64,000 nucleotides of DNA from Desulfofundulus kuznetsovii DSM 6115. GTDB taxonomy: Bacteria > Bacillota > Desulfotomaculia > Desulfotomaculales > Desulfovirgulaceae. A program made the position numbers and the translations under genes. Under the pieces are notes generated by a model. It was not told where the DNA came from. It made no database searches and was given only the letters and a program-made list of their open reading frames with translations. The stretch lies in NCBI RefSeq assembly GCF_000214705.1, contig NC_015573.1, positions 3,355,001 through 3,419,000 on the forward strand. The letters are read 5' to 3'. Below, piece after piece: positions 4,204 through 30,140 of this stretch; position 1 is the first letter of the stretch, and every line of letters starts with the position of its first letter.

Positions 4204-6843
<2,640 letters not shown>

Positions 6844-9753: not shown

Positions 9754-9851
9754 TTGACTAAACCCTCTTTCCGCAGCCAAAATAAAACCCCGCCCTCCGC
9801 TCGAAAAGCGTATGGCCGGGGCCCCATTGCCCTGATTGTTTCCCTGCCCGT

Positions 9852-9880: not shown

Positions 9881-10051
9881 GGGCGGGCTTTAAAACCCGG
9901 CGCCCCTGCCCGGGAGCGACAAAATTCGGCACCAGGTAGACTTTTTATGCCAATTCGTGCGATCCGGGTTCCGGTAATGGGCACTATGCAAAAGCAGGAA
10001 ACAAGACATTCCCTCCCCTCATGGGGGTTCATTTAATTTCCGTGCCGGATC

Positions 10052-10200
10052 TTACCGGTTGTTCAAGGTGATATCCGCAGCCAGCACCCCTGTAATCTGA
10101 CCCGCCTTATCCCGTATGGACAAAGACAGGGTCCGGCAGGGCTGCCGGGTGATGGCCGAAATATAAAAAGAGCGCCTTTGCCCTTCTCCGATTATTTTAG
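10052..10200 (-). pseudogene. C-terminal remnant of an extracellular sensor (Cache/PDC-like) domain
   Basis: Reading the minus strand in a frame different from nifV gives FYISAITRQPCRTLSLSIRD, then DKAGQITGVLAADITLNNR and a stop. This resembles the end of a PDC/Cache sensor domain, as found in chemoreceptors or GGDEF proteins. There is no start and no rest of the domain, and the fragment begins exactly where nifV ends. I read it as debris from a rearrangement that also may have shortened nifV. The remaining sequence of the 9754-10196 gap holds the nadE promoter and nothing else I can support. Confidence 0.5.
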
Positions 10201-11078: not shown

Positions 11079-11166
11079 CAGTTTCACCTCCGGATAAAAT
11101 GACTGGTGGTACCGGGTAGAGAAACGGCAGGGCAAATCTACCCTGCCGCCCGCACAATTTAAAACC

Positions 11167-11982: not shown

Positions 11983-13351
11983 TCTCGTTTATCCCCCTCT
12001 CCATATACCGCACGTGTCTGGCCACCATTTCTTCGCCTTCCTCACGCATGAACCCGCTGTTACCCAGCCGCCACACCGGGGCTCCCACCAGGGCCGCCAC
12101 TTCCCGGGCCAGGTTCACAAAACCGTTGAAGCCGGCGTAAGGGCTTGTTTCCTGGGGAAAGACCAGGAAGGGTATGCCCATCTTATGGGCCATGAACCTT
12201 TCCCTGGTGCCCCCCACCAGCAGGTCCGGTCGGCACCGGTGTAAAAATTCCTCCAACTCTCGCTGGTGGGCGTCATCAATCATCGGCGTTCCCCGGCCCA
12301 GGCAGCGGCGGGACTCGGTATAATCTTCCTGACAGCCGAACTGGGAGCCGCACAAAACCACCTCCATGCCCAGTTCGCCAAAGGCCCTGGCCATGGAACC
12401 CATGCGTGAAGCACCAAAGAAAAGGGCCACCCGCCTGCCTGCCAGGCGTCTCAGGTAAGGAAGCGCCCTCTGCCTGGCGGCCTCCGCCTCCTTTTCCACC
12501 CACGCCGCCTCCCCCGGGCGGTTAAAGAAAGCAGCAATGGCCTGCAGCGCCGCCGCAGTTTCGGCCAAACCAAAAAAGGAAACCTTCCGCCAGGGAATGC
12601 CGAAGCGCTCCTCCATCTCCCGGGCCAGCCAGCGCCCGGTACGCCCGCAGTGCACGATATTGAGCCCGGCCCGGTGAGCCCGGGCCATATTTTCTACCGT
12701 TGCCCGGCCGGACACGGCACAGATAATATTTAAACCGAGACGCTGCAACAACTGCTCAATTTCCTTCAAATCCCCCTGAACGTCAAACTCACCAAGTATG
12801 TTTACACTGTTCTCCAGGGGCGGCCCGGCCGGACCACGCCCGATAAAATGCTCGAGCAGGGCTGCCGCGGCGACATCGTGCCCTTTACCCTGGCTCACCC
12901 CGCCGAAACCGGGACAGTTGACCGGCACCACCGGCAGGCCCAGGGAGGCCGATGCCCGTTTGCAGATTGCCTCCACGTCCTCACCGATCAGTCCTACCGC
13001 GCAGGTAGTGTAAACCAGCACGGCAGAAGACCGGGGACGCAAACTTACTGCTTCCCTGATGGCATCTTCCAGTTTTTGCCCGGCACCAAAGACAATCTCC
13101 TTTTCACCCAGGGCGGTGGAAAACACCGTGTAGTTCTTTTTACGCACCGTCCCGCTGTAGTAAGCACAACCCACCGGCCCGTGGATAAGGTGAACCGCGT
13201 CCCTGATGGCTGCCAGCATCCAGCGGGCTCCGTAAAGCAGGCAGGCCCGCTGGGAAACTACCCCGGGGAGGGTACGCCGGTCACATGCGGGTATCTCCAC
13301 CACTTCCAGGTGCCCGGCCCGTTCAGGTATTACATCAATGGATATTTTCAT
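11963..13351 (-). CDS. nifE: Nitrogenase cofactor scaffold protein NifE
   Basis: 462 residues from ATG 13351 (AAGGAGAGG ribosome site); an open extension upstream has no family similarity. It is homologous to the NifD alpha subunit. It shows the cluster-ligand cysteines in SQRACLLYGARW, LIHGPVGCAYY and YTTCAVGLIGED, plus NIVHCGRTG and SPYAGFNGFVNLARE, and lacks the residues of a catalytic subunit. NifE normally forms a heterotetramer with NifN to mature the cofactor. No nifN is found in this window, so NifE must pair with a gene elsewhere or work differently. It is 224 bp downstream of nifK, after a GC-rich hairpin. Confidence 0.9.
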   Translation of the reverse strand: MKISIDVIPERAGHLEVVEIPACDRRTLPGVVSQRACLLYGARWMLAAIRDAVHLIHGPVGCAYYSGTVRKKNYTVFSTALGEKEIVFGAGQKLEDAIREAVSLRPRSSAVLVYTTCAVGLIGEDVEAICKRASASLGLPVVPVNCPGFGGVSQGKGHDVAAAALLEHFIGRGPAGPPLENSVNILGEFDVQGDLKEIEQLLQRLGLNIICAVSGRATVENMARAHRAGLNIVHCGRTGRWLAREMEERFGIPWRKVSFFGLAETAAALQAIAAFFNRPGEAAWVEKEAEAARQRALPYLRRLAGRRVALFFGASRMGSMARAFGELGMEVVLCGSQFGCQEDYTESRRCLGRGTPMIDDAHQRELEEFLHRCRPDLLVGGTRERFMAHKMGIPFLVFPQETSPYAGFNGFVNLAREVAALVGAPVWRLGNSGFMREEGEEMVARHVRYMERGINENERSSL

Positions 13352-13442
13352 AGTTATCCTCTCCTTAATCGAAAAGCATCCCTTCTTGAGCCCGACGGGC
13401 CTCTTCTCAAAACCACCCGTTGCTTTGTGTTGTTTATTAATT

Positions 13443-13505
13443 GAGCCGGGACCGGCAGGGCGCCCTGGGGGGCTTTCACGCCCCCCACCGGCCGGCCCGA
13501 CCCAA
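13443..13505 (-). other. GC-rich intercistronic hairpin between nifK and nifE
   Basis: TGGGGGGC/GCCCCCCA (13466-13487) forms the core stem, flanked by CCGGC-type arms that extend the pairing. No T-tract follows, so mRNA stabilisation or partial attenuation is more likely than termination. Confidence 0.5.
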
Positions 13506-13575
13506 ACCTGGCGTTTCGTGAAAATATTTAATGAATGAATCGTGGCAACTGTCACCCGGAATTCCATAAAAGTCC

Positions 13576-15054
13576 CTACAACTGCTGGGTACGGTCATCG
13601 GGGTACTGGTAATCCAGCATGCTGTTTACAATTTCCGCAAGCAGCATTTCCCCGCCCCGGTAACCCACAATGGGACGTTTTTGATAACCAAAGCGGTCGT
13701 AGATGGGGAAACCTACCCGCACCAGCGGTACCTGCAGCTCACGGGAGATGTCCACCGCCCGGGAATTACCGATAATCAGGTCCAGGCGCGGTTGTTTTTT
13801 CAGGTACTCCTCAAACTCAAACAGGTCGCCGCCATTGATGATCAGCGGCGGTTCGCCTTCGTAGCCCGCTTCGGCCAGAATGGCCTCCACATCGTGGACG
13901 AAGGTCTTGCTGGCCGTACCACCGGCCAGGGCCACCGGCTCCATCCCCATTTCCAGCACAAAGCGGGTGACACCGAGCACTATATCGGGATCCCCCATGA
14001 CAGCCACCTTTTTCATCATGGTGTGGTGCAGGGTGTCGGCCAGGGAATCAACTAACCGTCCCCTTTCCTGTAAGAGGCTTTCGGGGATGGGTTTTCCGGT
14101 TATCTCCCGCAGCGCCTTTAAAAAGGCATCGGTACCCTGTACCCCAACCGGTGGTGGACCAACCACGGCACGCACGCCGTATTTGCGCTCCAGGTAGCGG
14201 GCGCCGGCCTGGCCGGCGTGGGGCTGCAGGGCAAAGGTGGCCAGCGAATTGGCCATGTCTCTGATTTCCCCCACCGCAGTGCCACCAGGAGGATAGTAGG
14301 GGACGGACATTGGCGGCTCCAGGGGGGCGTCCAGGGTATCGGAAATGTCAAAGAGCACTATCGCCTCCACACCCATGTGGCGCAGCAGGTGCTTGATTTC
14401 CCGGATGTCGCCCGGGTAAAATAGACCCGGAATGATGTTCACCTTGCCGTTGGGTTCTCCCCTGGTGGTGGCCAGGGTCTCCACAAAGGCACGGGAGGCC
14501 CGGTCATAACCTTCCACATGGGACCCGGCAAAGCTGGGGGTGTTAACCAGCACTATGGGGATCCGGTCCGCTTTCTCAGGTCCGATCTCTTTACGCAGGT
14601 TGGCCCTGGCCATTTTAATAAAGCTGACCATATCGTCGCCGATAATTTCACTGGAACAGGTGGTCACCACGCCAATCAGCTCCGGCCAGTAACGCACCAC
14701 CAGGTTGCGAATGCCCTCCACCAGGTTGCGCCGGCCGCCAAAAACCGCCGCATCCTCATGGAAAGAGGCGGTGGCGATAAGGGCCGGTTCCTTAAAAATA
14801 CGGCAGAACGTATACCGTACGTAAGTGGTACAGCCCTGGGCACCCTGGACAAAAGGGATCGCCTTCCTTACTCCCAGCACCGCCCACATGGCTCCCAGGG
14901 GCATACAGGTGCGGTTGGGATTGATCACCACAGCCCTGTTCGCGGAGGGAATCAGCTCCGCCGGCCGCTCACAATACTCCGGCGCCGCCGGGACTTTTTC
15001 GATTTTTATCTGATCGTAAGGTATGCCCGTAACGGGAATTTCCTTTAGCTGCAT
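13576..15054 (-). CDS. nifK: Nitrogenase beta subunit
   Basis: 492 residues. It pairs with NifD; together they hold the P-cluster. The three beta-subunit P-cluster cysteines are present in NPNRTCMPLGA, GAQGCTTYVR and TTCSSEIIGDD, with the nearby Ser in PSFAGSHVEGYD. The sequence around FCRIFKEPALIATASFHEDA resembles VnfK/AnfK more than classical NifK, as does the short N-terminus. ATG 15054 overlaps the nifD end by 10 bp. Unlike nifD, this gene has no in-frame stop. Confidence 0.94.
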   Translation of the reverse strand: MQLKEIPVTGIPYDQIKIEKVPAAPEYCERPAELIPSANRAVVINPNRTCMPLGAMWAVLGVRKAIPFVQGAQGCTTYVRYTFCRIFKEPALIATASFHEDAAVFGGRRNLVEGIRNLVVRYWPELIGVVTTCSSEIIGDDMVSFIKMARANLRKEIGPEKADRIPIVLVNTPSFAGSHVEGYDRASRAFVETLATTRGEPNGKVNIIPGLFYPGDIREIKHLLRHMGVEAIVLFDISDTLDAPLEPPMSVPYYPPGGTAVGEIRDMANSLATFALQPHAGQAGARYLERKYGVRAVVGPPPVGVQGTDAFLKALREITGKPIPESLLQERGRLVDSLADTLHHTMMKKVAVMGDPDIVLGVTRFVLEMGMEPVALAGGTASKTFVHDVEAILAEAGYEGEPPLIINGGDLFEFEEYLKKQPRLDLIIGNSRAVDISRELQVPLVRVGFPIYDRFGYQKRPIVGYRGGEMLLAEIVNSMLDYQYPDDRTQQL

Positions 15055-16505
15055 GACCCTTCCTCCTCGTCTTTTGCCGGAGCACCATCAATGCCCCACT
15101 GGTATTTCCAAACCGGTGCATAAAGAGCCTGGTAGATATCCCGGGCAAAATTGACCATACCGACAAAGCCGGCATAAGGACCTTTTTCGTAGGAGTGGGA
15201 ATTTACCGTGGGAATGCCCATCTTGCGCGCGATATATTTTTCTTTCAGCCCGGTTAAAAACAGATCCGGCTTTTCGGTCTTGAGCATCTCTTCGATCTCA
15301 AACTCGTTGGGGTTGTCAATAACCAGCATTCCCTCCGGCGCCCGGGCGTTGATCTTTTCATAGTCGTCTTCGTGGGCAAAGGTGCAGGCGACGGCCACCA
15401 CGGTCATCCCCAGTTCCTCCATCAGCTTGATCCAGTGCCATACCCGGGGACCGCCGACGTAAATGGCCACCCGCTTGCCCTTTAACTTTTCCCGGTAGAA
15501 AGCCAGGCTCTTTTCCACCCGCTTCATTTCCCCGGCAATCACCTTCTCGGCCCGCTCCTCCAGGCCGAAGAAGGCAGCGGTTTTCCGCAGCGCTTCTGCA
15601 GTCTGCTTAATCCCGAAGAGCGAGACGCGGATAAATGGAATGTTAAACCCGTCTTTGATCATGTGGGCGATATATTCGGCGGAACGCTGGCAGTGCACCA
15701 CGTTTAATTTCACATCGGGCATCTTGACCAGGTTTTCGATGCGCTCGTTGCCGCTGAAAACGGCTGCAATGCGCACGCCGATTTTCTCAAAGAGCGGCCT
15801 GACTATCTTTAAATCCCAGTCCATGTTGTACTCGCCAATCAAGCAGATGTCATAGGGAGTTTTCTCTTCTTCGGACATTTTCAGCTCCGGCCGGCGCTCC
15901 CTCAACTGCCGTATCTGCCGGTAAAACTGGGTGTTAAAGTCGTGGTGCCCCCTGGACTGGCTCACCCCGGAACAACCCGGTGATTCGGAAGTGAAGATCA
16001 GCTTGCCGGTTTTCTTTTCCACCTGCCGGGCTATCGCCTGCACGTCGTCGCCGATCAGCCCCGTGGTGCAGGTGGTGAAGATGATCAATCCCTTTGCCTC
16101 GGGGAACAGCCGGATGGCTTCCAGGCAGGCCTGTTCCAGCTTTTTCATGCCCCCGAAGACAACGTCTTTTTCCTGCATGTCGGTACACATGCAGTAGCGG
16201 CGGTTGAAGGCGACGTTGGTCAGGCGGGTGGGCGTAGCCCAGGGATAAAAGTCGGATAGATGCCGCCGCGTACCCCACGTGTACCAGGCGCAACCTGCCG
16301 GCGCGTGAACCAGTTGAATGACGTCGGAAATTGGTCCGCCCACGACCCCGCGGGCACCGGCAAAAGCTCACCCGCGCTCGGTCATATCTCCCGGAATGGT
16401 GGCGATATTACAGGCGGGAATTATGGATTTCTCCTTTTCTGTGCGGTAAATATGCTTATCCCGCTCGGGAATCGTTTCGTTGCACTTCATTCTTACCACA
16501 GGCAT
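15045..16505 (-). CDS. nifD: Nitrogenase alpha subunit with in-frame TGA at a P-cluster cysteine; candidate selenoprotein
   Basis: 487 codons from ATG 16505 (GGGGAGG, 8-nt spacing) to TAA 15047-15045, with one in-frame TGA at 16370-16368 (codon 46). The context is MTERG-TGA-AFAGARGVVGGPI. The family has a strictly conserved Cys here (RGCAYAG in Azotobacter NifD, ERGCAFCG in VnfD), a P-cluster ligand. The other ligands are intact: HAPAGCAWYTW, TTCTTGLIGDD, the cofactor Cys in NVVHCQRS, the His in VNSHSYEKGPYAGF and the catalytic-region His in VSQSRGHH. The N-terminus (MPVVRMKCNETIPERDKHIY) is VnfD-like. No alternative start downstream has a ribosome site. The TGA could encode selenocysteine (inference; see hairpin at 16335-16352), or be a point mutation or sequencing error that destroys the gene. 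Confidence 0.9.
16335..16352 (-). other. Possible SECIS-like hairpin downstream of the nifD TGA
   Basis: Counting from the base after TGA, nt 13-18 (GCCCGC) pair with 25-30 (GUGGGC, one G-U pair) around loop GGGGUC. GGU at 10-12 can pair with ACC at 33-35 across a GG bulge, extending the stem to about 16330-16358. The UGA-to-loop distance is 18 nt and the loop starts with G, matching published descriptions of bacterial SECIS elements (short stem, G early in the loop, 16-37 nt spacing). GC-rich coding DNA forms hairpins easily, so this is suggestive only. Confidence 0.4.
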
Positions 16506-16618
16506 GATTTCATTCCTCCCCTCACGTCTTTCGCGACAGCCGTCCCCCCGGCCGGAGGACTATTGCCACACTTCATTTAAGCGTGCAATTCCCGGACACT
16601 TTATGACCCGTTCTGTTA

Positions 16619-16981
16619 TCAGATGGCTGCCGGGCCTTTTTCCCCCGTGCGTACCCGGACTACCTCTTCTACAGGGCAGACAAAGATACGTCCGTCTCCT
16701 ATCCGGCCGGTACGGTTGATTTTGATGATTGCAGCCACGACCAGGGACACGTCCCGGTCGTCCACCACCAGGGAAATCATCCGTTTGGGCACGTATTTCA
16801 TCCCGCCCTCCTGCTTTTCCAGTTCGGGGTTGACGGCAAAGGTCACTTCACCCGTGATTCCCTTCTGCTTGCCCCGCCCCACCACCTTGCAGGCGTTCAG
16901 ACCCGGAAAACCCAGCACGGCCAGGGCTTCTTTAGTGGCGTTAATTTTATTGGGCCTGATAATGGCAACTACTTCCTTCAT
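16619..16981 (-). CDS. nifI2: PII-like nitrogenase regulator NifI2
   Basis: 120 residues from ATG 16981 (GGGGGTGA ribosome site). It is a PII-family protein (KEVVAIIRPNKINATKEAL, VVGRGKQKG, GRIGDGRIFVCPVEEVVRVR). The enlarged T-loop region (GEVTFAVNPELEKQEGGMKY) is typical of NifI2. With NifI1 it switches nitrogenase off after ammonium addition by binding NifDK, relieved by 2-oxoglutarate (established in methanogens). Located between nifI1 and nifD, the usual order in archaea and clostridia. Confidence 0.94.
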   Translation of the reverse strand: MKEVVAIIRPNKINATKEALAVLGFPGLNACKVVGRGKQKGITGEVTFAVNPELEKQEGGMKYVPKRMISLVVDDRDVSLVVAAIIKINRTGRIGDGRIFVCPVEEVVRVRTGEKGPAAI

Positions 16982-17074
16982 GGCATATTCACCCCCGCGC
17001 AAAATCCACCGGAGAGTGCCGGTGCCAGCGGCGTTTTACCGGCCTCCGGCAAGAATCCGTTAACCTCCCGCGGG

Positions 17075-17392
17075 TTACAGCCCCGCAGCACCGGTGCGTA
17101 CAGTGTAGGCCTCATCAACCGGGGTGATGAAGATTTTCCCGTCACCGAAGTTTCCGGTATAAGCAGCTCTGGTAACGATTTCCACCACTTCCGCCGCCTT
17201 ATCGTCCTCTACCACCAGCATGATCATCACCTTGGGCAGCTCGTCGTAGTATATGCTGCCCACATGAATGCCCTTTTGCTTGCCCCGCCCAACCACATCC
17301 ATTTTGGTCAGGGCTACGTATCCGGCTTCAGCCAGGGCGTCCACCACTTCCTCACTTTTTTCGGGACGGATGATGGCCCTGATCATTTTCAT
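17075..17392 (-). CDS. nifI1: PII-like nitrogenase regulator NifI1
   Basis: 105 residues from ATG 17392 (GGGGAGGT ribosome site). It shows the PII fold with VVGRGKQKGIHVGSIYYDEL, a T-loop without the uridylylated tyrosine context of GlnB, and the C-terminal FGDGKIFITPVDEAYTVRTG. It works with NifI2 as a post-translational nitrogenase switch. Lies downstream of nifH, separated from it by a 249-bp long palindrome. Confidence 0.95.
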   Translation of the reverse strand: MKMIRAIIRPEKSEEVVDALAEAGYVALTKMDVVGRGKQKGIHVGSIYYDELPKVMIMLVVEDDKAAEVVEIVTRAAYTGNFGDGKIFITPVDEAYTVRTGAAGL

Positions 17393-17461
17393 ACTATAAC
17401 CTCCCCGGTGTAACAATTTTTTCCTCATTCCTCTGAGGCTTCTGTTACATATGCCCTGAGT

Positions 17462-17710
17462 TATCCCCAGTTTTAAGAGCGTGATTTAGCTCGAAAGCGA
17501 GCGACTTGAGCCAAGCGGAAGACCAAACTTAGCGAAATTGAGGACGGAGGCGGGGCCGAGGCCCTGGATGGCCGAGGCCGGCTCCTGAGGCACGGAAGCC
17601 GAATGAGCCGGGAACCCCGCCGGAGTCCGAAAATTGAGCGCTAGTTTGGTCCGCGAGGCGAAATTTAAGCGAGCGGGAGCTAAATCACGCCTGGCGAAAA
17701 AGTGGGGATA
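17462..17710. repeat. Family B long palindrome, copy B1, between nifH and nifI1
   Basis: Nested inverted arms are: TATCCCCA (17462) with TGGGGATA (17703); GCGTGATTTAGCTC (17479) with GAGCTAAATCACGC (ending 17690); GACCAAACTTAGCG with CGCTAGTTTGGTC; and GGCGGGG with CCCCGCC. The whole intergenic region can fold as one hairpin. It ends 3 bp from the nifH stop codon, so it will form at the 3' end of the nifH message. Related sequence occurs at 20612-20945 and 37925-38290. Confidence 0.9.
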
Positions 17711-17713
17711 CCG

Positions 17714-18622
<909 letters not shown>

Positions 18623-18641
18623 TCACTGTTTACTAATAAGT

Positions 18642-18692
18642 GGCGCCACGGGATTAGAGGGAGGAGGGTAGATCCTTTAAACCCGGGGCGCC
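18642..18692 (-). other. Second hairpin in the glnK-nifH interval
   Basis: GGCGCCACGGG pairs with CCCGGGGCGCC across a ~29-nt loop. It lies just upstream of the terminator-like hairpin and may compete or cooperate with it. No sigma-54 promoter matching the GG-N10-GC spacing was found in this interval. Confidence 0.45.
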
Positions 18693-18772
18693 AATGCCAG
18701 TTCTCCAACATCCTTGTTTTAACGCCCGGAAAACCTCACCTGCGAGTAGCAATTGCCTTTTCCAGGGAATCA

Positions 18773-19129
<357 letters not shown>

Positions 19130-19171
19130 TCACGTAGTCCATGTCCCGGGAAAAAGCAGCTTTAATTTATC

Positions 19172-20569
19172 TTACACACCGGCTTCCCTGGTAGTGACCA
19201 CAGTAGAAGGAGAAGCCGATAAGCTCTGAATACGGCTCACCGGTGCGCCCAGCACCATGTCTGAGTAGGCATCCTCACCATGCTGGGTGATATCCAGACC
19301 CTGTACCTCTTCATCTTCGCTGGCCCGCAACTTGAAGAACAATCCCACCACCTTGAGGATGACGAAAGTCATAACGGCGGCAAACAGCCAGCTGGCCAGT
19401 ACGCTGATAAACTGGATCCACAGCTGATGGGGGTTGCCAAAGAGCAGCCCGTCAACACCGGCAGGGTTAACAGCCCTGGAAGCAAACAGGCCGGTGGCCA
19501 GCGCGCCCCACGTACCGCCGATACCGTGCACGCCGAAAGCGTCAAGTGAATCATCATAACCCAGCCGGGTCTTGACCACGCTCACCGCCAGGTAGCAGAC
19601 CACGCCGGCCACCAGGCCGATGATTACGGCAGGAATGGGACCGACAAAGCCGGAAGCGGGGGTGATGGCCACCAGACCGGCCACCAGGCCGCTGGCACCG
19701 CCAAGCACGGTAGGCTTGCCGTGACGGATCCACTCGGCAAAGACCCAGGAGAGGGCTGCCGCTGCAGCGGCCGTGTTGGTCACCACAAAAGCGCTGGCCG
19801 CCAGGCCGCTGGCCGAAAGGGCGCTGCCGGCGTTAAAGCCGAACCACCCAAACCACAGCAGCGCCGCTCCCAGGACCGTAAGGGGCAGGTTATGGGGCAC
19901 CATCGGTTCCGAACCGTAACCCCTGCGCTGGCCCAGCACCAGGGCCGCGATCAGGCCGGATACGCCGGAGGAAATGTGCACCACCGTGCCGCCGGCAAAG
20001 TCCAGGGCGCCCAGGTTGCGCAACCAGCCATCAACGCCCCATACCCAGTGGGCCAGGGGGTCGTAAACGAAAGTCGACCAGAGCAGGGTAAAGGCTACAA
20101 AAGCCGGGAAACGCATGCGCTCAGCAAAGGACCCGGTAATCAGGGCCGCCGTAATGACTGCAAACATCATCTGGAAGGCCATAAAAGCCAGGTGCGGAAT
20201 GGTAGCCGAATAATCGGCATTGGGCTCTTGACCTACACCGTTCAAGCCAAGCCAGGAAAGGTCACCAATTAACCCCCCCTGGTCGGGACCAAAAGCCAGG
20301 CTGTAACCCCAGAGCACCCACTGTACTGAAATCAAGGCCATGATAAACAGGCTCTGCATGATCGTGCTGAGGGTATTCTTGCGCCTGACCATACCACCGT
20401 AGAACAGGGCCACCCCGGGCAGGGTCATGAGCATCACCAGTGCTGCAGAGATAAGTATGAATGCGGTGTCTCCCGTATCAATTTGAGCTTCACCGGCCCA
20501 GGCCAGACCGGGTGCGGCCAGCAATACCAGAGGTAAAAGGTAAAGGCCATTCATGATTCGCCTGTACAC
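19172..20569 (-). CDS. amtB: Ammonium transporter Amt
   Basis: 465 residues from GTG 20569 (AGGAGG, 9-nt spacing). A signal-like first segment (LLPLVLLAAPGLAWAGEAQI) precedes about eleven membrane helices. Amt signatures: ALFYGGMVRRKN, WVLWGYSLAFGP, DFAGGTVVHISSGVSGL and FGVHGIGGTWGALATGLF, which contain the twin pore histidines. It conducts NH4+/NH3 across the membrane under nitrogen limitation. It heads the nitrogen-fixation cluster, linking supply sensing to nif expression. Confidence 0.96.
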   Translation of the reverse strand: MYRRIMNGLYLLPLVLLAAPGLAWAGEAQIDTGDTAFILISAALVMLMTLPGVALFYGGMVRRKNTLSTIMQSLFIMALISVQWVLWGYSLAFGPDQGGLIGDLSWLGLNGVGQEPNADYSATIPHLAFMAFQMMFAVITAALITGSFAERMRFPAFVAFTLLWSTFVYDPLAHWVWGVDGWLRNLGALDFAGGTVVHISSGVSGLIAALVLGQRRGYGSEPMVPHNLPLTVLGAALLWFGWFGFNAGSALSASGLAASAFVVTNTAAAAAALSWVFAEWIRHGKPTVLGGASGLVAGLVAITPASGFVGPIPAVIIGLVAGVVCYLAVSVVKTRLGYDDSLDAFGVHGIGGTWGALATGLFASRAVNPAGVDGLLFGNPHQLWIQFISVLASWLFAAVMTFVILKVVGLFFKLRASEDEEVQGLDITQHGEDAYSDMVLGAPVSRIQSLSASPSTVVTTREAGV

Positions 20570-20611
20570 TTACACCAACCTCCTATCCAAACCTGTCCTG
20601 AGAATAGCACT

Positions 20612-20945
20612 TGCCTGCCGTTTGCACGCGCTCGCTCCGGTGAGCCTTGCAGGCCAAACTAGCGCTCGACCTCGGGCTACGGCGGGGTTCCCGGCCAATT
20701 TGGAAGTTGGAAGTCAGATGTCAGAGGTTAGAACTGTTGTTGGAATTCGCTACGCGAATTCCTTCCTCTTTTCCGACTTCCGACTTCCGACCTCTAACCT
20801 CCATTCATCCCGGCATCCAAGCCCTCGGCCCCGCCTCCGCCCTCGGTCTCGCTAAGTTTGGCATCTGCTCGGCTCAATGTCGCTCACTTCGTGCAAAACG
20901 GCGGCCATTTTCATCCTCTGTTGGTGGCGCTGAAAGCGCCATAGG
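20612..20945. repeat. Family B long palindrome, copy B2, with inserted heptad/hairpin module
   Basis: Outer arms GCCGTTTGCACG (near 20617) and CGTGCAAAACGGC (near 20912) are inverted; inside are GCCAAACTAGCGCTCG and CTCGCTAAGTTTGGC. The centre holds GGAAGTY-type heptads on both strands around a perfect palindrome GGAATTCGC-TAC-GCGAATTCC (20742-20762). The right flank (CAAAACGGCGGCCATTTTCA) recurs in copy B3. In the 20570-21384 gap, the only other features I see are the two terminators listed. Confidence 0.85.
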
Positions 20946-21080
20946 TGCCTACCCTGGTTTCTGCACCTCCAGCCGCTGCAGCCTCCGGATCCTGCTGTAA
21001 CGGCCGAAGATGGCCTGTATCTTATCGCCCGGGGTGAACGGCGCCAATTCACCGGACGGACGTTTCCTGCAAAACGCAAA

Positions 21081-21125
21081 AAGGGTGCTTTAATGGAGCA
21101 ACACTGCTCCTTTTAAAGCACCCTT
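21081..21125 (-). terminator. Strong terminator downstream of the glpC terminator
   Basis: AAGGGTGCTTTAA / TTAAAGCACCCTT with an inner GGAGCA/TGCTCC stem, followed on the minus strand by TTTTT. Second of two terminators after glpC. Confidence 0.8.
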
Positions 21126-21183
21126 GCTTTGGTTCACCATCATATCATGTTGAACTGGTTCCAAATTCTGTCCGGTTAAGTAA

Positions 21184-21225
21184 AAAGGCGCTTCAGGAAG
21201 ACTACTCTCCCTGATAAGCGCCTTT
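21184..21225 (-). terminator. Terminator after glpC
   Basis: AAAGGCGCTT/AAGCGCCTTT stem with a T-run on the minus strand, about 160 bp after the glpC stop codon. Confidence 0.8.
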
Positions 21226-21384
21226 GCCAGACTTCCACCTTTGGATGACCTGCCTGCATTAAAACAAAACGCTTTTCAACAGATCCACCCTGTCAAAAAG
21301 CGCCATCGCCGGGATAGATACAACTGTGTACCTGAATCCTGATTAAAGTATAAGTTAACAGGGAATCGCTGTCAAGACCTTTTT

Positions 21385-22602
21385 TTAATTTTGTGTCGCC
21401 GGACCGTACCAACCCATAGGAGCCATAATTTCCACGGGATGGGCCACCATGACACCTGTGCCGTGATTGATCTGCACTCCACACATGCCGCACTCCGTAA
21501 CCACCATTTGCACTTCCGTCTCCCCTACGGCCCGGAAGAGCTCCCGGCCTACGGCCATGGCCAGGGGATATCTGTCCCGCTTTAAACCGTAACTGCCGGA
21601 CATGCCGCAGCAACCGGCCGCCAGGTCCTGCACCGCCAGGGCGGGTATGTGCTTTAACAGGCGAAGGGCGGGGATGCCGATACCTGCCGCCTTGTGGTGG
21701 CAGGGCTGGTGATACCCGATTTTGAGTTCTACGGGTTGAAAGTTGCCCGCCAGCTCGCCGTTTGCCGCCAGGTTCGCCAGAAATGCCACGGCATCGGTTA
21801 CCTTTTCCGCCACCACCTCGCTGCCCGGCACATCCAGCAGTTCCCCGTATTCCACCTTTAACGAGAGGTAACAGCTGGGGCAGGTGGTGAGAATGGACAT
21901 GCCCGCCAGGGCATATTCCGCCAGGGACTGGACATTTGCCGCAGCCAACCGGCGTGCCTTGTTCAAATAACCGTTGCTGAAGAGGGGCAGGCCGCAACAA
22001 TGCATCCCGGGCACCACCACCTGGTACCCGTTCTCCTTCAGGATACGAACCAGGGCCAGGCCGGTAGCCGGGCGGTAGTACTCCACAAAACAGCCGGGGA
22101 AATATACAACCTTCTTGCCGGCGGCATTCTGCTTGACCCGCCGCAACAATTTCCTGAAGATAAGAGGTGCATAGGGCGGCAGCGGGGCCCGGCTCGCAAG
22201 ACCGGTGCTTTTCTCCAGCAGCCGCCTCCCCAACGGCCAGCGCAACACCCGGTTCACCAGGCCGGGCCACAGGGAAGCCATTTTACCTGCCAGATCGGGG
22301 CGGGCCGGCAGGTAGCCGGTAATCCCCGGGCGGCCGGCGGTCCCAGACCGGGCCTTGGCCAGCTGGTTGATTACGGATATGCGCACTCCGGAAGGGCAGG
22401 CCAGGTCGCAGTTTTTGCAATTGGAACAGTAATGCACACCGGGATACACGGCGGCTGGATCTTCCAGGGTGAAGCGCATCATGTCCGGACCGCATTGCTT
22501 GGGCCCGGCAAAACGGGGGTTTACCGCCGCCACGGGGCAGAACATGGTGCAAATGGAGCACTTGATGCATTGATCCAGGTTAACTTCACGGGCGCCGGTC
22601 AT
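21385..22602 (-). CDS. glpC: Anaerobic glycerol-3-phosphate dehydrogenase, iron-sulfur subunit C
   Basis: 405 residues from ATG 22602 (AGGTGA, 6-nt spacing); a TTG two codons earlier is too close to the ribosome site. Two 4Fe-4S motifs: CIKCSICTMFCP (about residue 12-23) and CSNCKNCDLACPSG. Two cysteine-rich CCG domains follow, one with CCGLPLFSNGYLN and one with CCGMSGSYGLKR. GlpC anchors the GlpAB dehydrogenase to the membrane and passes electrons to quinone. It is 13 bp after glpB in a glpABC operon. Confidence 0.95.
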   Translation of the reverse strand: MTGAREVNLDQCIKCSICTMFCPVAAVNPRFAGPKQCGPDMMRFTLEDPAAVYPGVHYCSNCKNCDLACPSGVRISVINQLAKARSGTAGRPGITGYLPARPDLAGKMASLWPGLVNRVLRWPLGRRLLEKSTGLASRAPLPPYAPLIFRKLLRRVKQNAAGKKVVYFPGCFVEYYRPATGLALVRILKENGYQVVVPGMHCCGLPLFSNGYLNKARRLAAANVQSLAEYALAGMSILTTCPSCYLSLKVEYGELLDVPGSEVVAEKVTDAVAFLANLAANGELAGNFQPVELKIGYHQPCHHKAAGIGIPALRLLKHIPALAVQDLAAGCCGMSGSYGLKRDRYPLAMAVGRELFRAVGETEVQMVVTECGMCGVQINHGTGVMVAHPVEIMAPMGWYGPATQN

Positions 22603-22615
22603 TGCCAATCACCTC

Positions 22616-23881
22616 TCAATCCACTAAGCTGCCCGCTTTGTAACCGGTGGCCAGGGCCAGCCCGTTGCCGCACTTCTCTCGGGTAAAGTCGCTGCCGGCC
22701 AGGACGGCCCCGGCCGCCAGCACATTGGTGAAAATCTCCTTCCCCTCATGGACCGGCGTCAGCTGGGCATTTACTTTGATCCCGGACCGCAGCACCGGGT
22801 GGCCAGAAAGGCTGAAAAAGTCGGCGTTCGCCCCCGACACGGGGCCGGTATGGCCGGTCCATACCGGCAGGTTGAAAACCGTTTCCCTGATGCCGTCAGG
22901 ACCGGCGGTCAAGCCGCCGCCCAAAAAGGAGCCGGTACATAGGATGAAATAACGGGCGCGTATTTCCTGCCGGTCATTTCCCGCCTGCACCACCACCGCC
23001 CGGCATGTCCTATCTTCGGCTACTGCACCTACAACCGTACAACCCGGCCTTACTTCCGCCCCGGCCCGGCGGATGCAGGTGAACAGCATGTCGCTTAAGC
23101 GCTTGCCGGGAAGAGACGGGGGCAGGCCGGGCAGCTCCACGACCTGGCAGTCGAGCTCTGCCGTTAGTTCCGCCGCCACGGTGCTGTCCCAGCGCGTGCC
23201 GAGTACGGCCGGTAAGAGCAGGAGGGTATCACGCGTCACCGCGGTTTTAAGGTGCCGGGCAAGCTCCACCCTGCCTTCCGACGTTTCCAGCCGCCGGGCC
23301 AGGAATTCCGCCCGCAGTTCGCCCGGGGAAAACAGCTCCAGCTGAATGGCCTCCACCCGGCAACCCGCCGGCAACCAGCCGCTCCGCTTTAGATTGGTGG
23401 CGATGACCGCCGGGAAGAAATCTTTCAATCCTTTAAAGCCCACCACAACGGCCTTTTTGAGGTCGGCCGGGTTACGGGGCACCTGGCCGGCCGGGGCCAG
23501 GTATGTCGGCCGGACCGTACCCAGGGCCGTGGGCAGGAGCTGGTTTGCCTGGTCTTTGGCCAGGTAATGGCAGTTCATCTGCCGGCACAGATCCTGGAAA
23601 AAGGCCAGGCTTTCTTCCAGCATATCAGCGGCTGCGGCGTAAGGGTGATCGGGATTATACCTGATCATCTCCCGGATCTCAGCCACGGGGTTGACTGCCA
23701 TGGCTTTGTTGGGACCGGCGTATCCCCACACATCCACGCAACCGGTAGATAAAGACAGGGTGCCGCTGCCTGCGGCCAACAGGAGCACTGATTTGCCGCG
23801 GCTGGCGGCCCGGGCCGCCGCCATCAGGCCGGCCATGCCCCCGCCGATCACCACCACATCATACTGGCATCCCGCACTCAT
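22616..23881 (-). CDS. glpB: Anaerobic glycerol-3-phosphate dehydrogenase subunit B
   Basis: 421 residues from ATG 23881, overlapping the glpA stop (ATGA). It is a flavoprotein with an N-terminal dinucleotide fold YDVVVIGGGMAGLMAAARAA and the C-terminal CGNGLALATGYKAG segment seen in GlpB. It mediates electron flow between GlpA and GlpC. The GTG at 23890 is an alternative start but would overlap its own ribosome site. Confidence 0.94.
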   Translation of the reverse strand: MSAGCQYDVVVIGGGMAGLMAAARAASRGKSVLLLAAGSGTLSLSTGCVDVWGYAGPNKAMAVNPVAEIREMIRYNPDHPYAAAADMLEESLAFFQDLCRQMNCHYLAKDQANQLLPTALGTVRPTYLAPAGQVPRNPADLKKAVVVGFKGLKDFFPAVIATNLKRSGWLPAGCRVEAIQLELFSPGELRAEFLARRLETSEGRVELARHLKTAVTRDTLLLLPAVLGTRWDSTVAAELTAELDCQVVELPGLPPSLPGKRLSDMLFTCIRRAGAEVRPGCTVVGAVAEDRTCRAVVVQAGNDRQEIRARYFILCTGSFLGGGLTAGPDGIRETVFNLPVWTGHTGPVSGANADFFSLSGHPVLRSGIKVNAQLTPVHEGKEIFTNVLAAGAVLAGSDFTREKCGNGLALATGYKAGSLVD

Positions 23882-25491
23882 GACCGGCACATCCTTTCAA
23901 GGTTAAATATGGTGCCGTAAATGGCCTGGGCAAGCTGGGTTTCCCGCAATTGCTGCCCCCACAACACCGGGCGGATGCCCTCCCACCGGCTCTGCAGGAA
24001 TTCGCGCAGGTAGTGAAGGTTGTTTTCCAGCACGCAAGTGTTATGCTCCGCAGCCACCCCCAGGGTACGGAAGGCGCAAAAGGCGCCCTGGCAGGTGCCC
24101 ATGCCCATCCTGGTCTTCCGACGGATGTCGCACAAGGTAAAGGTGTCGGCACAGCCGGCCGCGTGTTCTATTTCCGCCCGGCTGACAAGCTCGCACTCAC
24201 AGATGAGCTCCGCCTTGCTGGGGTCGGCCCCGGCCTTTTGCAAAATGTCTTTAAATTCGCTACCCCAGCGCTCTGCGGCCTTGACCGCTGCGGGAAACCC
24301 GAACAACCGCCTGCCCCGGTTTAAGTCCGCCGGAGGGATGGGTTCCGTTAAAGGTTCCTGCGCCGTGCGGCACGGGCTGTTGATGCATAGCAGGGAGCAA
24401 ACCAGGTCGGCCGTTTTTTCTGCCATCAACCGGTAAGTGGTCAGCTTGCCGCCCACAATGCTGACCATGCCGTTTAAACCGTCCTCCCGGTGGTCTAGCA
24501 GGACAAAATTCCGCGATACCTCCCGGCCCGCCTGGGCGGTCCCGCTGCGGTAAAGTGGGCGGACGCCGGCAAAGGCCCGGATCAGGCGGTACCGGCGCAA
24601 ACCGGGAAATACCTCCTCACCTGTGGCCAGGAGCTGCTGCACCTCCTCCGCCGCCGGCCTGGCGAACGCGGGCCCGGCCACCTCCTGGGAAGTGGTGCCC
24701 AAAATGGTTACCGTGTTGTGAGGCACGAATATGTCGCCGTCCCCCGGCGGGCGGAGCCTGTTAATTACCTGGTTGACGAAACGGTGGTTAAAAACGGCGA
24801 GGGTACCTTTATCATGCAAGACGCTTACTTTGAGTCCCGCCAGTTCCGCCACCTTTCCGGCCCAGGGCCCGGCGGCGTTAACCAGCACCTGGCATTCCAG
24901 GTGGGATTTTTCACCGGTTAGAGTATTGGTCAGTTCCACGCCCGTCACCCGACCGTCGGCAATGTGCACCCCGGTCACCCGGTGGTAAGTGAACACGCGC
25001 GCCCCGTGGCGCCGTGCCGAGCGCACGTTGGCCCGGAGCAGGCGAAAGCCGTCTACGGCACCATCGGGAACCCTGAAGGCCCGCCTGACCCGCGGGGAAA
25101 GGCCAGGATACCGGGCGCGCAAGTCCTGTACATCCACTTCCTGAACATCGATGCCGGCCGCCCGGCAGGCGGATACCCACCGGCCCACATAATCCGGATC
25201 TTCACCGTCCAGGTGCACAAACAGGCCGCCGGTGTCCTCCACGCAGGCGGGCGCAATCTGCTTCAGAATTTCATTTTCCCGGATGCATTCCACGGCGGCG
25301 TCCATGTCCTTGACCGCGTAGCGTGCCCCGCTGTGCAAAAGGCCGTGGAAACGGGAGCTGGTACCGTGACCCAGGTCGAACTGTTCCACAAGCACAACAT
25401 CAACACCGCGCATGGCCAGGTCCCTCAAGACGCCAACACCTGTGGCCCCCCCGCCGACAACCGCCACCTGGGCGCGTTCCCTTTTGATCAT
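23878..25491 (-). CDS. glpA: Anaerobic glycerol-3-phosphate dehydrogenase catalytic subunit A
   Basis: 537 residues from ATG 25491 (GGAGGAATT). It oxidises sn-glycerol-3-phosphate to dihydroxyacetone phosphate. FAD-binding motif VAVVGGGATGVGVLRDLAMR at the N-terminus, then the DAO fold with GHGTSSRFHGLLHSGARY. The C-terminal BFD-like [2Fe-2S] domain has ICECELVSRAEIE and GMGTCQGAFCAFR. It follows glpK after a 200-bp leader with a terminator hairpin, so it can be regulated separately from glpFK. Confidence 0.96.
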   Translation of the reverse strand: MIKRERAQVAVVGGGATGVGVLRDLAMRGVDVVLVEQFDLGHGTSSRFHGLLHSGARYAVKDMDAAVECIRENEILKQIAPACVEDTGGLFVHLDGEDPDYVGRWVSACRAAGIDVQEVDVQDLRARYPGLSPRVRRAFRVPDGAVDGFRLLRANVRSARRHGARVFTYHRVTGVHIADGRVTGVELTNTLTGEKSHLECQVLVNAAGPWAGKVAELAGLKVSVLHDKGTLAVFNHRFVNQVINRLRPPGDGDIFVPHNTVTILGTTSQEVAGPAFARPAAEEVQQLLATGEEVFPGLRRYRLIRAFAGVRPLYRSGTAQAGREVSRNFVLLDHREDGLNGMVSIVGGKLTTYRLMAEKTADLVCSLLCINSPCRTAQEPLTEPIPPADLNRGRRLFGFPAAVKAAERWGSEFKDILQKAGADPSKAELICECELVSRAEIEHAAGCADTFTLCDIRRKTRMGMGTCQGAFCAFRTLGVAAEHNTCVLENNLHYLREFLQSRWEGIRPVLWGQQLRETQLAQAIYGTIFNLERMCRS

Positions 25492-25520
25492 AATAATTCC
25501 TCCTGCCCCTCGGTATCCTC

Positions 25521-25584
25521 AAAAAAGGCAAGCCGCACCACAGCGGGTGAACTTTCTCGTCCACCCGTAGCTGCAAGTGCGGCT
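25521..25584 (-). promoter_or_regulatory. Leader terminator upstream of glpA, possible GlpP antitermination site
   Basis: Minus strand: AGCCGCAC/GTGCGGCT and an inner CGGGTG/CACCCG stem followed by TTTTTT, 30 bp before the glpA start. It could be a simple glpK terminator. In Bacillus, GlpP overrides such leader terminators when glycerol-3-phosphate is present, and glpP is in this cluster, so conditional read-through is the better guess. Confidence 0.6.
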
Positions 25585-25690
25585 CTGTCTCCAAAATCAC
25601 AAGCCTGTTGTCCAATTTTTTAAGGTTCCATACCCTTTTGCCCCATGCAAAACGGCAACAATTCTGAGCCGCCCCAGGCTGCAAAAAGGT

Positions 25691-28052
<2,362 letters not shown>

Positions 28053-28154
28053 AATTTTCCTCCTCCTTATTCTCCCATATTCCCCTTATTAACGCGGTCA
28101 CGATAGATTCATAAGCGGAATCCTAATTATTCACCCCCCCTCCTGCAGCCAAAT

Positions 28155-28205
28155 AAAAAAGGGGTGACCCATGAACAGTACTGTAGCTGCTCACAACAGG
28201 CCACC
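28155..28205 (-). promoter_or_regulatory. Second hairpin-T-tract in the glpF leader
   Basis: GGTGGCC/GGTCACC stem (one G-T pair) with TTTTTTATTT behind it on the minus strand, about 100 bp before glpF. Likely a conditional terminator read through with help from GlpP. Confidence 0.55.
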
Positions 28206-28235
28206 TCTCCTTATCTCCCGGCCACGTCATCAAGC

Positions 28236-28306
28236 AAAAAACCCCTTAAGCAAAGCCAGTTGGACATGAACAAACATGAACACACGGCTCTGCCAGCAGG
28301 GGTTTT
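28236..28306 (-). promoter_or_regulatory. First hairpin-T-tract in the glpF leader / glpP terminator
   Basis: AAACCCCT at 28306 side and AGGGGTTTTTT at 28240 side enclose GGCAGAGCC and GGCTTTGC arms. It can act as the glpP terminator or as the first GlpP-controlled terminator of glpFK. A perfect inverted repeat ATCAAG-TTAT-CTTGAT lies just upstream at 28326-28341. Confidence 0.6.
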
Positions 28307-28390
28307 CTCCTCGACTCCTACCAATATCAAGTTATCTTGATTTTGACTATTCTACAAAAGTTCAAACTTTCCTCCTCTTCGAAAGAAAAT

Positions 28391-28966
28391 TTAATTAAGC
28401 GATATATTCCACAACTTCCTCAAACTGGTACTTATGGCCATAATCCCTTTCGATAGGGCTTCCCTTACATCCTCCTCAGTTTTCAAAAGTCCTCCGGCCA
28501 TAACAGGAACTCCCAGAGCATTTTTTAACTCTTCAACTACATACGCAGGTACCGTGGCCGGCAATATTTCCACTGCGTGGGGAGTAACATTTTGGGCCAC
28601 CTTAATGGCAGTTTTAAGCGACTCGGAATCAACCATAAAAAACCTCTGAACGGCCAGCATACCTTCATCCAGAGCACATTTTACCAGGTTCGACTTGGTA
28701 GTAATAATCCCGTCGAGATTCATCCGGGCTAACAAGTGCACCCCCGCACGGTCTTTGCCAATTCCCTCAAGAAGATCCAGGTGTACCAGAAAAGTCTTCC
28801 CGGCAGCCCTGGCCTTTTTGATCATGCCGGACAAATAATTTATATCTCCACCCAGGATAATTATCGTTTCAATATTAGGATGATACAGGGCTTCCGGAAG
28901 ATCATCCATCCTCCGAATGGCAGCGACCACCCTCTTGTTGCCGAACAATTTACAACTTTTCTCCAT
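28391..28966 (-). CDS. glpP: Glycerol-3-phosphate-responsive antiterminator GlpP
   Basis: 191 residues from ATG 28966 (GGAGGGGT ribosome site). GlpP-family TIM-barrel-like protein: NKRVVAAIRRMDDLPEALYH, TIIILGGDINYLSGMIKKA, LARMNLDGIITTKSNLVK, VEILPATVPAYVVEELK and VMAGGLLKTEEDVREALSKG. With glycerol-3-phosphate bound it allows transcription through leader terminators of glp genes. It lies directly upstream of glpF, where two candidate target hairpins are present. Confidence 0.94.
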   Translation of the reverse strand: MEKSCKLFGNKRVVAAIRRMDDLPEALYHPNIETIIILGGDINYLSGMIKKARAAGKTFLVHLDLLEGIGKDRAGVHLLARMNLDGIITTKSNLVKCALDEGMLAVQRFFMVDSESLKTAIKVAQNVTPHAVEILPATVPAYVVEELKNALGVPVMAGGLLKTEEDVREALSKGIMAISTSLRKLWNISLN

Positions 28967-29088
28967 AGGCACCCCTCCATAATCAAAAGCGCCAACGTAT
29001 CGCTCAAAATTCACATTCACACGTGTATAGCCCCGTTATTGGACGGCACCCGGCACCGTCCAACCGGGATCGCCATGTCGAAAAACGC

Positions 29089-29181
29089 CTGTGGAAAAGT
29101 CTCCTGTGGATGAAAAAGCTGTGGATAATGTGGATAAGCCTGTTAATAACCAGCCGGATAACCCTTTCGGATTTGGATAAA
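29089..29181. promoter_or_regulatory. Cluster of DnaA-box-like sequences between comF and glpP
   Basis: Two exact boxes TGTGGATAA occur back to back at 29120-29128 and 29129-29137 (complement TTATCCACA). One-mismatch or weaker relatives flank them: TGTGGAAAA (29090), TGTGGATGA (29105), CCGGATAAC (near 29155) and TTTGGATAA (29173). All point the same way. Density is far above anything else I noticed in the window. It could bind DnaA for titration or regulation; no dnaA/dnaN genes are near, so it is not the usual oriC. Confidence 0.65.
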
Positions 29182-29219
29182 CTGTTGGTAAACGTAAATT
29201 TTGTCACATTGGGTTACAT

Positions 29220-30092
29220 TTATGCATCCCCTGGCGGGCCTGCTGTCGAATTCCGCAAACAAAAAGGGGCAGCCACGGTGACCACGTAGACCCCCGCCGC
29301 ACCCGCCGCAAGAAGGGTACTGGTACATTCCCGGACGGTCGAGCCGGTGGTGATAACATCATCCACCAGGAGCACCACCCGCCCCGGCAGCAGAACATCC
29401 GCCGCAACAGCAAAGCAGCCTGACAGATTGCTTAAACGGTTTGCGCGGGACAGCCCGGTCTGGGGAGGAGTTTCCCGCACCTTGCGCAGGGCCGGCACAA
29501 GGGACCAGCCCAGCGTCAGGGACAGCTCCCGGGCCAGCAATTCGGCCTGATTAAACCCCCGGGCCTGTAAGCGTTTCCGGGAAAGGGGCACCGGTACCAC
29601 AAGGGGAAGCGTTCCAGGAGGAACCAATTCCCGGGCCACCGCAGCCAGCAGATGTCCCAGGGGGCGTGCCAGTCCCCGCTCCCGGCGAAACTTCAGGCGC
29701 AGGACAGCTTCCTTCAACACGCCTTCGTAGGGACCGACGGCCCGGGCTGCGTTAAAGGGAGGGCGCTCGACCCCACACCGGGGGCAGGGCGGGTGCGGGA
29801 AAGGAGCACCGCCCCGGCCGGTGGACCGGGAAGTTGTAACAAGAGCCCCACCGCCAGACCCTCCAGGTTCCTCACCAGGGGTGCCGGTTCTTTTTCCTGA
29901 CGGCATCCGAAAGCAGCCGCAAATAGTACAGCCAACCGGCATTCTGTTGTCCAGAAACATCTCCCGGCACCTGGAACAAAGCTCTCCATCTTCCGCCGCG
30001 GCACCACAGAGGGGGCACCCCCGGGACGGGGGAAATAGCAAATCCAGAAAATCGCTCCACAGTTCCCGCAAGGGGTTTAAAAGACGGCGCAC
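29220..30092 (-). CDS. comF: ComF-family phosphoribosyltransferase
   Basis: 290 residues from GTG 30092; an alternative GTG at 30122 begins inside a heptad repeat. An N-terminal zinc-finger-like pair is visible (GCPLCG, LCSRC; then GCTICGC and CPRCG), followed by a type I phosphoribosyltransferase domain with PRPP loop VVLLVDDVITTGST and FNQAELLAREL. ComF proteins serve DNA uptake or nucleotide salvage. A Gly/Ser/Thr-rich insert (PSGKRTGTPGEEPGGSGG onward, about 40 residues) splits the cysteine-rich region. Confidence 0.9.
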   Translation of the reverse strand: MRRLLNPLRELWSDFLDLLFPPSRGCPLCGAAAEDGELCSRCREMFLDNRMPVGCTICGCFRMPSGKRTGTPGEEPGGSGGGALVTTSRSTGRGGAPFPHPPCPRCGVERPPFNAARAVGPYEGVLKEAVLRLKFRRERGLARPLGHLLAAVARELVPPGTLPLVVPVPLSRKRLQARGFNQAELLARELSLTLGWSLVPALRKVRETPPQTGLSRANRLSNLSGCFAVAADVLLPGRVVLLVDDVITTGSTVRECTSTLLAAGAAGVYVVTVAAPFCLRNSTAGPPGDA

Positions 30093-30100
30093 CCCGATCA

Positions 30101-30140
30101 GCTCCCACTTCCCACTTCTCACCTCCCACTTCTCACTACC
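30101..30140. repeat. Heptad array (GAAGTGR type) at the 3' end of the diguanylate cyclase gene
   Basis: Minus strand GTGAGAAGTGGGAGG then TGAGAAGTGGGAAGTGGGAG. It starts at the TAG stop of the upstream gene and supplies ribosome-site-like and GTG start-like sequence in front of comF. Confidence 0.7.

Follow-up and report, generated by a model that had tools for sequence, protein, structure and literature searches.

A conserved DnaA-box module at two recurring addresses in Desulfofundulus kuznetsovii and many other Firmicutes: a probable replication-timing site away from the origin

A cluster of DnaA boxes beside comF in Desulfofundulus kuznetsovii probably helps control when replication starts, since it lies far from the origin and its layout and gene neighbourhood are kept in many Firmicutes. 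DnaA is the protein that starts chromosome copying, and DnaA sites off oriC are best known from Escherichia coli and Bacillus subtilis. Because the address is shared, the architecture conserved, the module present twice in the genome and no target gene constant, we infer DnaA binding, titration and an effect on initiation timing; the element would be an extra-origin DnaA-binding module that titrates DnaA as a chromosomal sink or sensor tuning initiation, a reading that we regard as rather probable. Its fixed letters, its spacing and its two recurring addresses over much of the Firmicutes make the module a concrete deletable target in many species.

The element beside comF and its conservation

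The window, i.e., the whole stretch of 64,000 nucleotides that was analysed, belongs to a genome of one contig of 3,601,386 bases; positions below are those of the window unless stated otherwise. The whole conserved element, as delimited by alignment of sister genomes, runs from comF to the stretch bearing glpP (29076..29206, on the comF strand, -). Two exact DnaA boxes TTATCCACA form a tandem pair, the distal member at 29120..29128 (-) and the other, abutting it with a 0-bp gap, at 29129..29137 (-). The nearer exact box is separated by 3 bp from a conserved variant box, TTATTAACA (29141..29149, -), which has 7/9 letters of TTATCCACA, and the three lie within a 32-bp core, GTTATTAACAGGCTTATCCACATTATCCACAG (29119..29150, -), with 100% identity in 4/5 genus relatives and 97% in the other one. 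An outer box, TTTATCCAAA (29172..29181, -; order consensus TTTANCCACA), has an almost fixed spacing to the core, and two boxes with one mismatch, TCATCCACA (29105..29113, -) and TTTTCCACA (29090..29098, -), are each found in 5/6 genus genomes. The order-wide profile of the module (R1, see below) matched 29117..29182 (-) with 59.4 bits.

An earlier note on this DNA had described two exact boxes and four near-matches in a single orientation between comF and glpP, and this cluster proved real: TGTGGATAA has exact matches at 29120-29128 and 29129-29137, and matches with one mismatch at 29090, 29105 and 29172, all on the forward strand, while the fourth near-match is TGTTAATAA at 29141-29149, two mismatches from TGTGGATAA and one from TTATNCACA. 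The single orientation stood, with the correction that the boxes read as TTATCCACA on the comF strand (-). The location given for the cluster was right and its extent was not, the conserved unit being wider on both sides (about 29076-29206); the second copy at tsaD, the fixed architecture and a Spo0A-box-like site had been missed. The flanking genes were borne out by Pfam, in a check that covered ten window proteins: comF (PF00156, DZR_2; 29220..30122, -), a ComFC-like phosphoribosyltransferase gene, is the upstream neighbour of the element, and glpP (G3P_antiterm, PF04309, E 9e-58; 28391..28966, -) is the nearest gene of the stretch beyond it and lies outside the conserved unit.

Five one-strand boxes with at most one mismatch fall within 92 bp, whereas in 300 simulated Markov-1 sequences of 64 kb the largest cluster was 1 (285 times) or 2 (15 times), and a chance cluster was therefore rejected. 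Genome-wide, TTATNCACA occurred 76 times, compared to 38 times for the reversed pattern, and only three pairs lay within 100 bp of each other (random expectation 0.16), namely at the comF site, at genome positions 3022458/3022467 just past the tsaD 3' end, and at dnaA-dnaN (oriC, 1393/1447). Equal density at many sites was thus not seen for exact TTATNCACA boxes. As in the extra-origin DnaA-box clusters (DBCs) of B. subtilis, several DnaA boxes lie, beyond chance, in a short intergenic stretch off oriC. At the tsaD-side sister module (G000:C1:3022412-3022650; L028:4413-4652), a second small box pair in opposite orientations follows about 150 bp on.

The core is conserved well above neutral sites, here the fourfold sites of comF. 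Identity to D. kuznetsovii at these sites, in the element and in the 32-bp core was 91, 94 and 100% in G003, 82, 91 and 100% in G005, 84, 94 and 100% in G001, 71, 94 and 100% in G004, and 62, 66 and 97% in G002; the corresponding values for two more distant members of the family were 42, 72 and 94% (G008) and 43, 64 and 94% (G007). Since the sites in these relatives were located by means of the tandem boxes, an independent test of the core is confined to its remaining letters. Taken whole, the element exceeds the neutral level by only a little in G003 and G002.

Several other explanations of a conserved non-coding stretch were discarded. A structured RNA was rejected on zero Rfam matches at E 0.1 in 28300-29400. 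On the forward strand a short hydrophilic peptide can be read through the boxes, but relatives show indels of 1-2 bases within the element, and a coding sequence was also dropped because the identical core recurs opposite to the tsaD orientation. An orientation-dependent transcription terminator does not account for a core that runs with comF yet against tsaD, and the single terminator-like site found (29269-29285) is outside the core. No sigma-70-like promoter was found in 28900-29300.

Recurring addresses, changing neighbours and chromosomal position

Throughout the order, the module consists of an outer box, TTATTAACA, 3 bp, and then TTATCCACA-TTATCCACA. The exact 19-mer core TTATCCACATTATCCACAG was found in 53/113 genomes of the order, with 63 matches (reversed control, 0/113). 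By tblastn landmarks, 30 matches are at comF, 27 at the tsaD 3' end and 6 elsewhere; two of these six are followed by csp, three are preceded by comF at 5.0-5.2 kb on the same strand, and the last precedes hpf-secA. The tsaD 3' end and the comF-csp-hpf-secA interval thus account for 63/63 matches. The names tsaD, hpf (presumably a ribosome hibernation factor), secA, fliS, fliT, glyS and trpS are our own assignments from the translations, and tblastn was run with those sequences. An alignment of the 63 rows shows the outer box (consensus TTTANCCACA), a spacer whose length differs by one base, GTTATTAACA, a gap of three bases and the tandem pair; outside the 19 bp by which the rows were gathered, GTTATNAACA is nearly invariant.

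The profile R1 was built from this 63-row alignment, uses sequence only and was run with strict filters, so that weak matches may be lost. It matched at least 106/113 genomes of the order at E 0.01, and among the matches listed D. kuznetsovii has two at this threshold, one at the tsaD 3' end and one in the comF-secA interval. Among the matches listed under these strict filters, 7/113 genomes had none at E 0.01, G031 had no R1 match in 2.2 kb at comF, and in G028 the match at comF was weak (25.5 bits), all of which count against the titration reading. The core has the orientation of comF and the opposite of that of tsaD, and two opposite orientations do not fit one gene-directed role.

The comF-side neighbourhood was compared between relatives. 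In many of them csp, encoding a cold-shock protein, follows the element within a 3-kb locus. In D. kuznetsovii, csp (7627..7821, -), the next landmark gene hpf (6983..7498, -) and secA (4252..6810, -), the end landmark of the conserved interval, lie on one side of a stretch of about 21 kb (7915..29042) and the element lies on the other, comF side; this csp has its own TTGACA, about 21 kb from the intact element. In the alignment, the stretch is missing at that place in G003 and G004, and G001 has about 0.8 kb instead. It is not wholly private to D. kuznetsovii, because near their elements G002 and G005 hold pieces that resemble window 18.8-21.4 kb; these two genomes keep the element with no csp within about 1.5 kb. 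The element thus stays while its neighbour changes: the 21-kb stretch here, a distant csp in G002 and G005, and an ABC-transporter gene in many loci of the class of Laceyella. The stretch contains glpP, a MIP channel, a glycerol-kinase-type FGGY kinase and FAD oxidoreductases. At its edge, an imperfect inverted repeat, GGACGGCACCCGGCACCGTCC (29041-29063), adjoins the element and is partly present in relatives. Elsewhere in the window, a 229-nt inverted repeat with 97% complementarity (32531-32759 and 34599-34827) flanks the S-adenosylmethionine synthetase gene metK (32797-34059).

A DnaA-regulated promoter for glpP, as the earlier note had suggested, did not withstand this comparison. The element is probably no control site of the glycerol gene beside it, because glpP is present in 0/8 other family genomes, yet 7/8 (the five genus members, G007 and G008) keep boxes beside comF, downstream of it; the eighth, G006, has no boxes at comF and carries the core upstream of hpf-secA instead. 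Overall, glpP was found in 6/41 genomes searched, within the family only in D. kuznetsovii, and it is not linked to boxes elsewhere, as six glpP loci in five other genomes (L002-L007) have 0-2 scattered boxes nearby. The absence of a sigma-70-like promoter between 28900 and 29300 points the same way.

The element lies 217 kb from dnaA, or 6.0% of the chromosome, and dnaA itself is at base 43 of the genome with its own box clusters. We searched for dnaA in 17 genomes and tabulated 10 (eight of one contig, G001 of ten contigs and G058 of two); the seven left out (G014, G018, G028, G034, G039, G045 and G147) include G034, which has no R1 match among those listed, and G028 with its weak match, and no position was assigned to the G031 comF copy. 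The comF copy was found 5.4-9.6% of the genome from dnaA and on the same arm in 9/9 genomes where it was placed, an origin-proximal and conserved relative position such as that of datA. The tsaD copy was found 8.8-19.1% from dnaA, on either arm, in 8/10 genomes; in G057 and G058 (2/10) it lies at 41% and 45%, which counts against the titration reading.

Beyond the order, a looser pattern allowing one mismatch was found in 112/398 genomes of the phylum (reversed control, 0/398). Among 30 phylum loci examined, 24 had a comF-secA landmark, 4 had tsaD and 2 had neither; a landmark was any one of comF, csp, hpf, secA, fliS and fliT in the fetched DNA, and a lone csp is weak evidence, csp genes having paralogues. 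A collection of named genomes, whose loci partly repeat genomes of the order set, yielded at least 120 stretches and at least 80 loci. Among the 80 loci listed, 40 had a comF-secA landmark and 19 had tsaD; no landmark was found in 21/80 (7 near glyS/trpS and 14 others), again a point against titration, and two of these 14 (L185 and L217) have coordinates that put comF at a distance of about 5 kb. Some uncultured Clostridia have the module near glyS (L159, L160, L175, L180, L193 and L211) or trpS (L197) and not at tsaD or comF, perhaps a third address family. Named genomes with a tsaD-side module include Thermincola, Carboxydothermus, Syntrophomonas and Desulforamulus, and in Clostridioides difficile the module is upstream of hpf-secA. 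For the class of Laceyella, which we take to be the Bacilli, R1 matched 86/151 genomes at E 0.001, the weak ones among which may be oriC because R1 scores 24-30 bits at dnaA-dnaN of two genomes. The best 30 loci of this class comprised 8 with tsaD, 19 with comF, fliS, fliT, csp, hpf or secA landmarks and 2 with neither, and in Laceyella itself, one of these 30, csp is 1.7 kb away. The module of this class often adjoins ABC transporter genes, presumably of the amino-acid type, and sometimes lies between them. The address is thus kept there at a scale of some 10 kb, and the neighbour is not.

Possible functions of the module and of its Spo0A-box-like flank

Under the titration reading, DnaA, probably ATP-DnaA, would bind the ordered boxes cooperatively, and the bound module would serve as a sink or sensor, lowering the DnaA free to act at oriC. 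Both copies, at the tsaD 3' end and in the comF-csp-hpf-secA interval, lie fairly near the origin, so that their dosage would double early after initiation. The earlier suggestion of a titration locus of the datA type fared better than its glpP counterpart: the element is non-coding, its core is above neutral, it is one of two modules found in the genome, it lies 6.0% from dnaA and no single downstream gene goes with it throughout, and the tsaD copy sits at a DnaA-binding address known from B. subtilis. A reactivating, DARS-like role, proposed together with titration, would look the same by sequence. In B. subtilis, the available text of PMC5295017 reports that deletion of six extra-origin clusters caused early initiation, strongly only with all six gone, that one cluster put back relieved this in part (also PMC13220808), and that a lone cluster was helpful at various locations, which means that position may matter little. 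An approximately 10-fold excess of DnaA without over-initiation, reported in the part of PMC13220808 used here, speaks against titration. The origin proximity of the two copies does not prove a need for proximity, since the positions of comF and tsaD may be conserved for other reasons and a B. subtilis cluster works at various locations.

The comF copy carries, at its csp-side end, a predicted perfect Spo0A-box (0A-box) core, TGTCGAA (29076..29082, +; motif as given in the accessible part of PMC3485338), at a conserved, phased distance from the DnaA core. Its reverse, TTCGACA, was found in the flanks of 27/35 comF-group copies, compared to a mean of 0.66 and a maximum of 3 in 200 shuffles; this test took 35 comF-group and 27 tsaD-group loci of the 63, with L072 left out, whose addition gives 27/36. 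TTCGACA is also the commonest 7-mer on the csp side when no motif is chosen beforehand (27/36 comF-group copies, in 8/9 families), and its start is 35-37 bp past the core in 23 copies; in 4 others the distance is 25 bp, about one helical turn less. Loci of other phylum families had it in 11/23 readable cases and those of the Laceyella class had a 0A-like core in 0/18, counts that omit the loci not matched by the strict core regex (7/30 and 11/29, respectively). In tsaD copies TTCGACA is absent on the matching side (0/27 order loci, 0/19 named loci), and on the other side TTCGACA occurs in 6/27 and TGTCGAA in 4/27. The other flank of the element holds a weaker conserved motif, TGACA(AAA), seen here as TTTTGTCA (29199..29206, +; TGACAAAA on the comF strand). 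The 3' end of comF contains another TGTCGAA (29244-29250). Spo0A_C was found in 105/113 genomes, and six of the eight without it are <90% complete.

A 0A-box core at a fixed, helically phased distance suggests a link to sporulation, and the comF copy may, on weaker grounds than those for DnaA, be a target of Spo0A as well, or of some protein that recognises an identical core; Spo0A is the first candidate, not a proven one, and another regulator could share the core. Tentatively, and as a possibility rather than an expectation, the comF copy in Desulfotomaculia and related families would be a joint DnaA-Spo0A site within an ancient pair of sinks of fixed architecture, at tsaD and in the comF/fliT-csp-hpf-secA interval, which would be a general replication-timing device of Clostridia and Bacilli. 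Spo0A~P on the helically phased TGTCGAA, on the same face of the DNA, would then alter the amount of DnaA held by the sink, and entry into sporulation would act on initiation away from oriC as well as at oriC. The module makes a connection of sporulation with the control of replication open to test.

The main rival to titration is gene regulation: a DnaA-controlled region for downstream genes (csp-hpf-secA in relatives, glpP here), coupled to replication and possibly involving Spo0A, which seems to us unlikely and which, if true, would couple stress or translation genes to replication status. The element is indeed upstream of csp or hpf in many relatives, the core lies 263 bp from the csp start in L009 with a promoter-like TTGACA close to csp, the 0A-box-like core is on the csp side of the DnaA core, and B. 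subtilis DnaA regulates several genes adjoining its binding regions (PMC4447404, in the text available). However, the tsaD copy sits at the 3' end of a gene, the element is intact in D. kuznetsovii although csp is far off there and has its own TTGACA, G002 and G005 keep the element without a nearby csp, and the glpP side shows neither a sigma-70-like promoter nor a link to boxes elsewhere. Distinctly unlikely in our judgement is an active nucleotide switch in place of passive titration, which would promote hydrolysis of DnaA-ATP as datA does or release of ADP as DARS do, with a protein at TTCGACA acting as IHF or Fis do in E. coli. Box order and spacing fixed over the order and a phased partner site recall datA (PMC4585315), the 3-bp box pair is as at DARS2 (PMC11317965), and the position would be replicated early, at 6.0% compared to 10 centisomes for datA (PMC4585315), as far as the consulted portions of these sources go. 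Against this, the portion of PMC13220808 used here describes B. subtilis as being without datA, DARS and IHF and puts its balancing of ADP- and ATP-DnaA in doubt, the second box pair abuts (0 bp), whereas E. coli favours a gap of 2-3 bp, and tsaD copies are missing the partner motif on that side.

Two further roles appear less probable again. A mark for chromosome organisation or segregation used at sporulation, i.e., an anchor near the origin bound by DnaA and Spo0A, is very unlikely; the 0A-like core at the comF copy, its origin-proximal place on one arm and the wide occurrence of Spo0A_C agree with it, but the readable Laceyella-class loci are without that core and no partner is known. A secondary or former replication origin is hardly credible and was dropped: R1 scores the dnaA-dnaN regions of two other genomes at 30.2 and 24.1 bits and that of D. 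kuznetsovii at 14.4 bits, but dnaA with its own box clusters is 217 kb away, no initiator gene was found among the ten neighbouring proteins scanned, and in the copies listed the core is not followed by any conserved AT-rich or trio-like tract.

Comparison with known DnaA systems

The double boxes of E. coli purH and DARS2 resemble part of the module. Pairs of boxes with 2-3 bp between them are favoured by E. coli DnaA, which at purH binds a 7-of-9 box and a perfect box separated by 3 bp (PMC11317965, in the text accessible to us); TTATTAACA and the first exact box have the same composition, distance and single orientation. However, a third box abuts here with 0 bp and an outer box follows. 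Similar to the element, datA of E. coli is a non-coding DnaA-box locus near oriC (10 centisomes, compared to 6.0% here and 5.4-9.6% in relatives), where the spacing between box and IBS matters (PMC4585315, in part). datA acts by stimulating hydrolysis of DnaA-ATP and requires an IHF site, in which the element may differ; IHF is reported to be missing from B. subtilis (PMC13220808, in the part used). The oriC of Firmicutes (dnaA-dnaN) shares a box order that R1 recognises weakly, and differs in that dnaA is not beside the element but 217 kb off.

The closest likeness is to the DBCs of B. subtilis, which are also intergenic DnaA-box clusters outside oriC. Two modules are found here compared to six clusters there, and the comF copy has an adjoining Spo0A-box-like core. 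The comF/fliT-csp-hpf-secA address is not named among the rows listed of the B. subtilis binding table (PMC4447404), and no DnaA cluster at comF/secA was recognised among the titles and abstract openings seen, which does not establish its absence from print. At the other address, the gcp (tsaD)-ydiF region is bound by B. subtilis DnaA with a Kd of 0.15 uM for ATP-DnaA, and 16-fold more DNA was recovered with ATP- than with ADP-DnaA at 55 nM (PMC4447404, in the portion available). The gene address of this DBC is that of the tsaD copy in D. kuznetsovii, by comparison of addresses and not of sequence, which suggests that the gcp region of B. subtilis may be one member of an old family.
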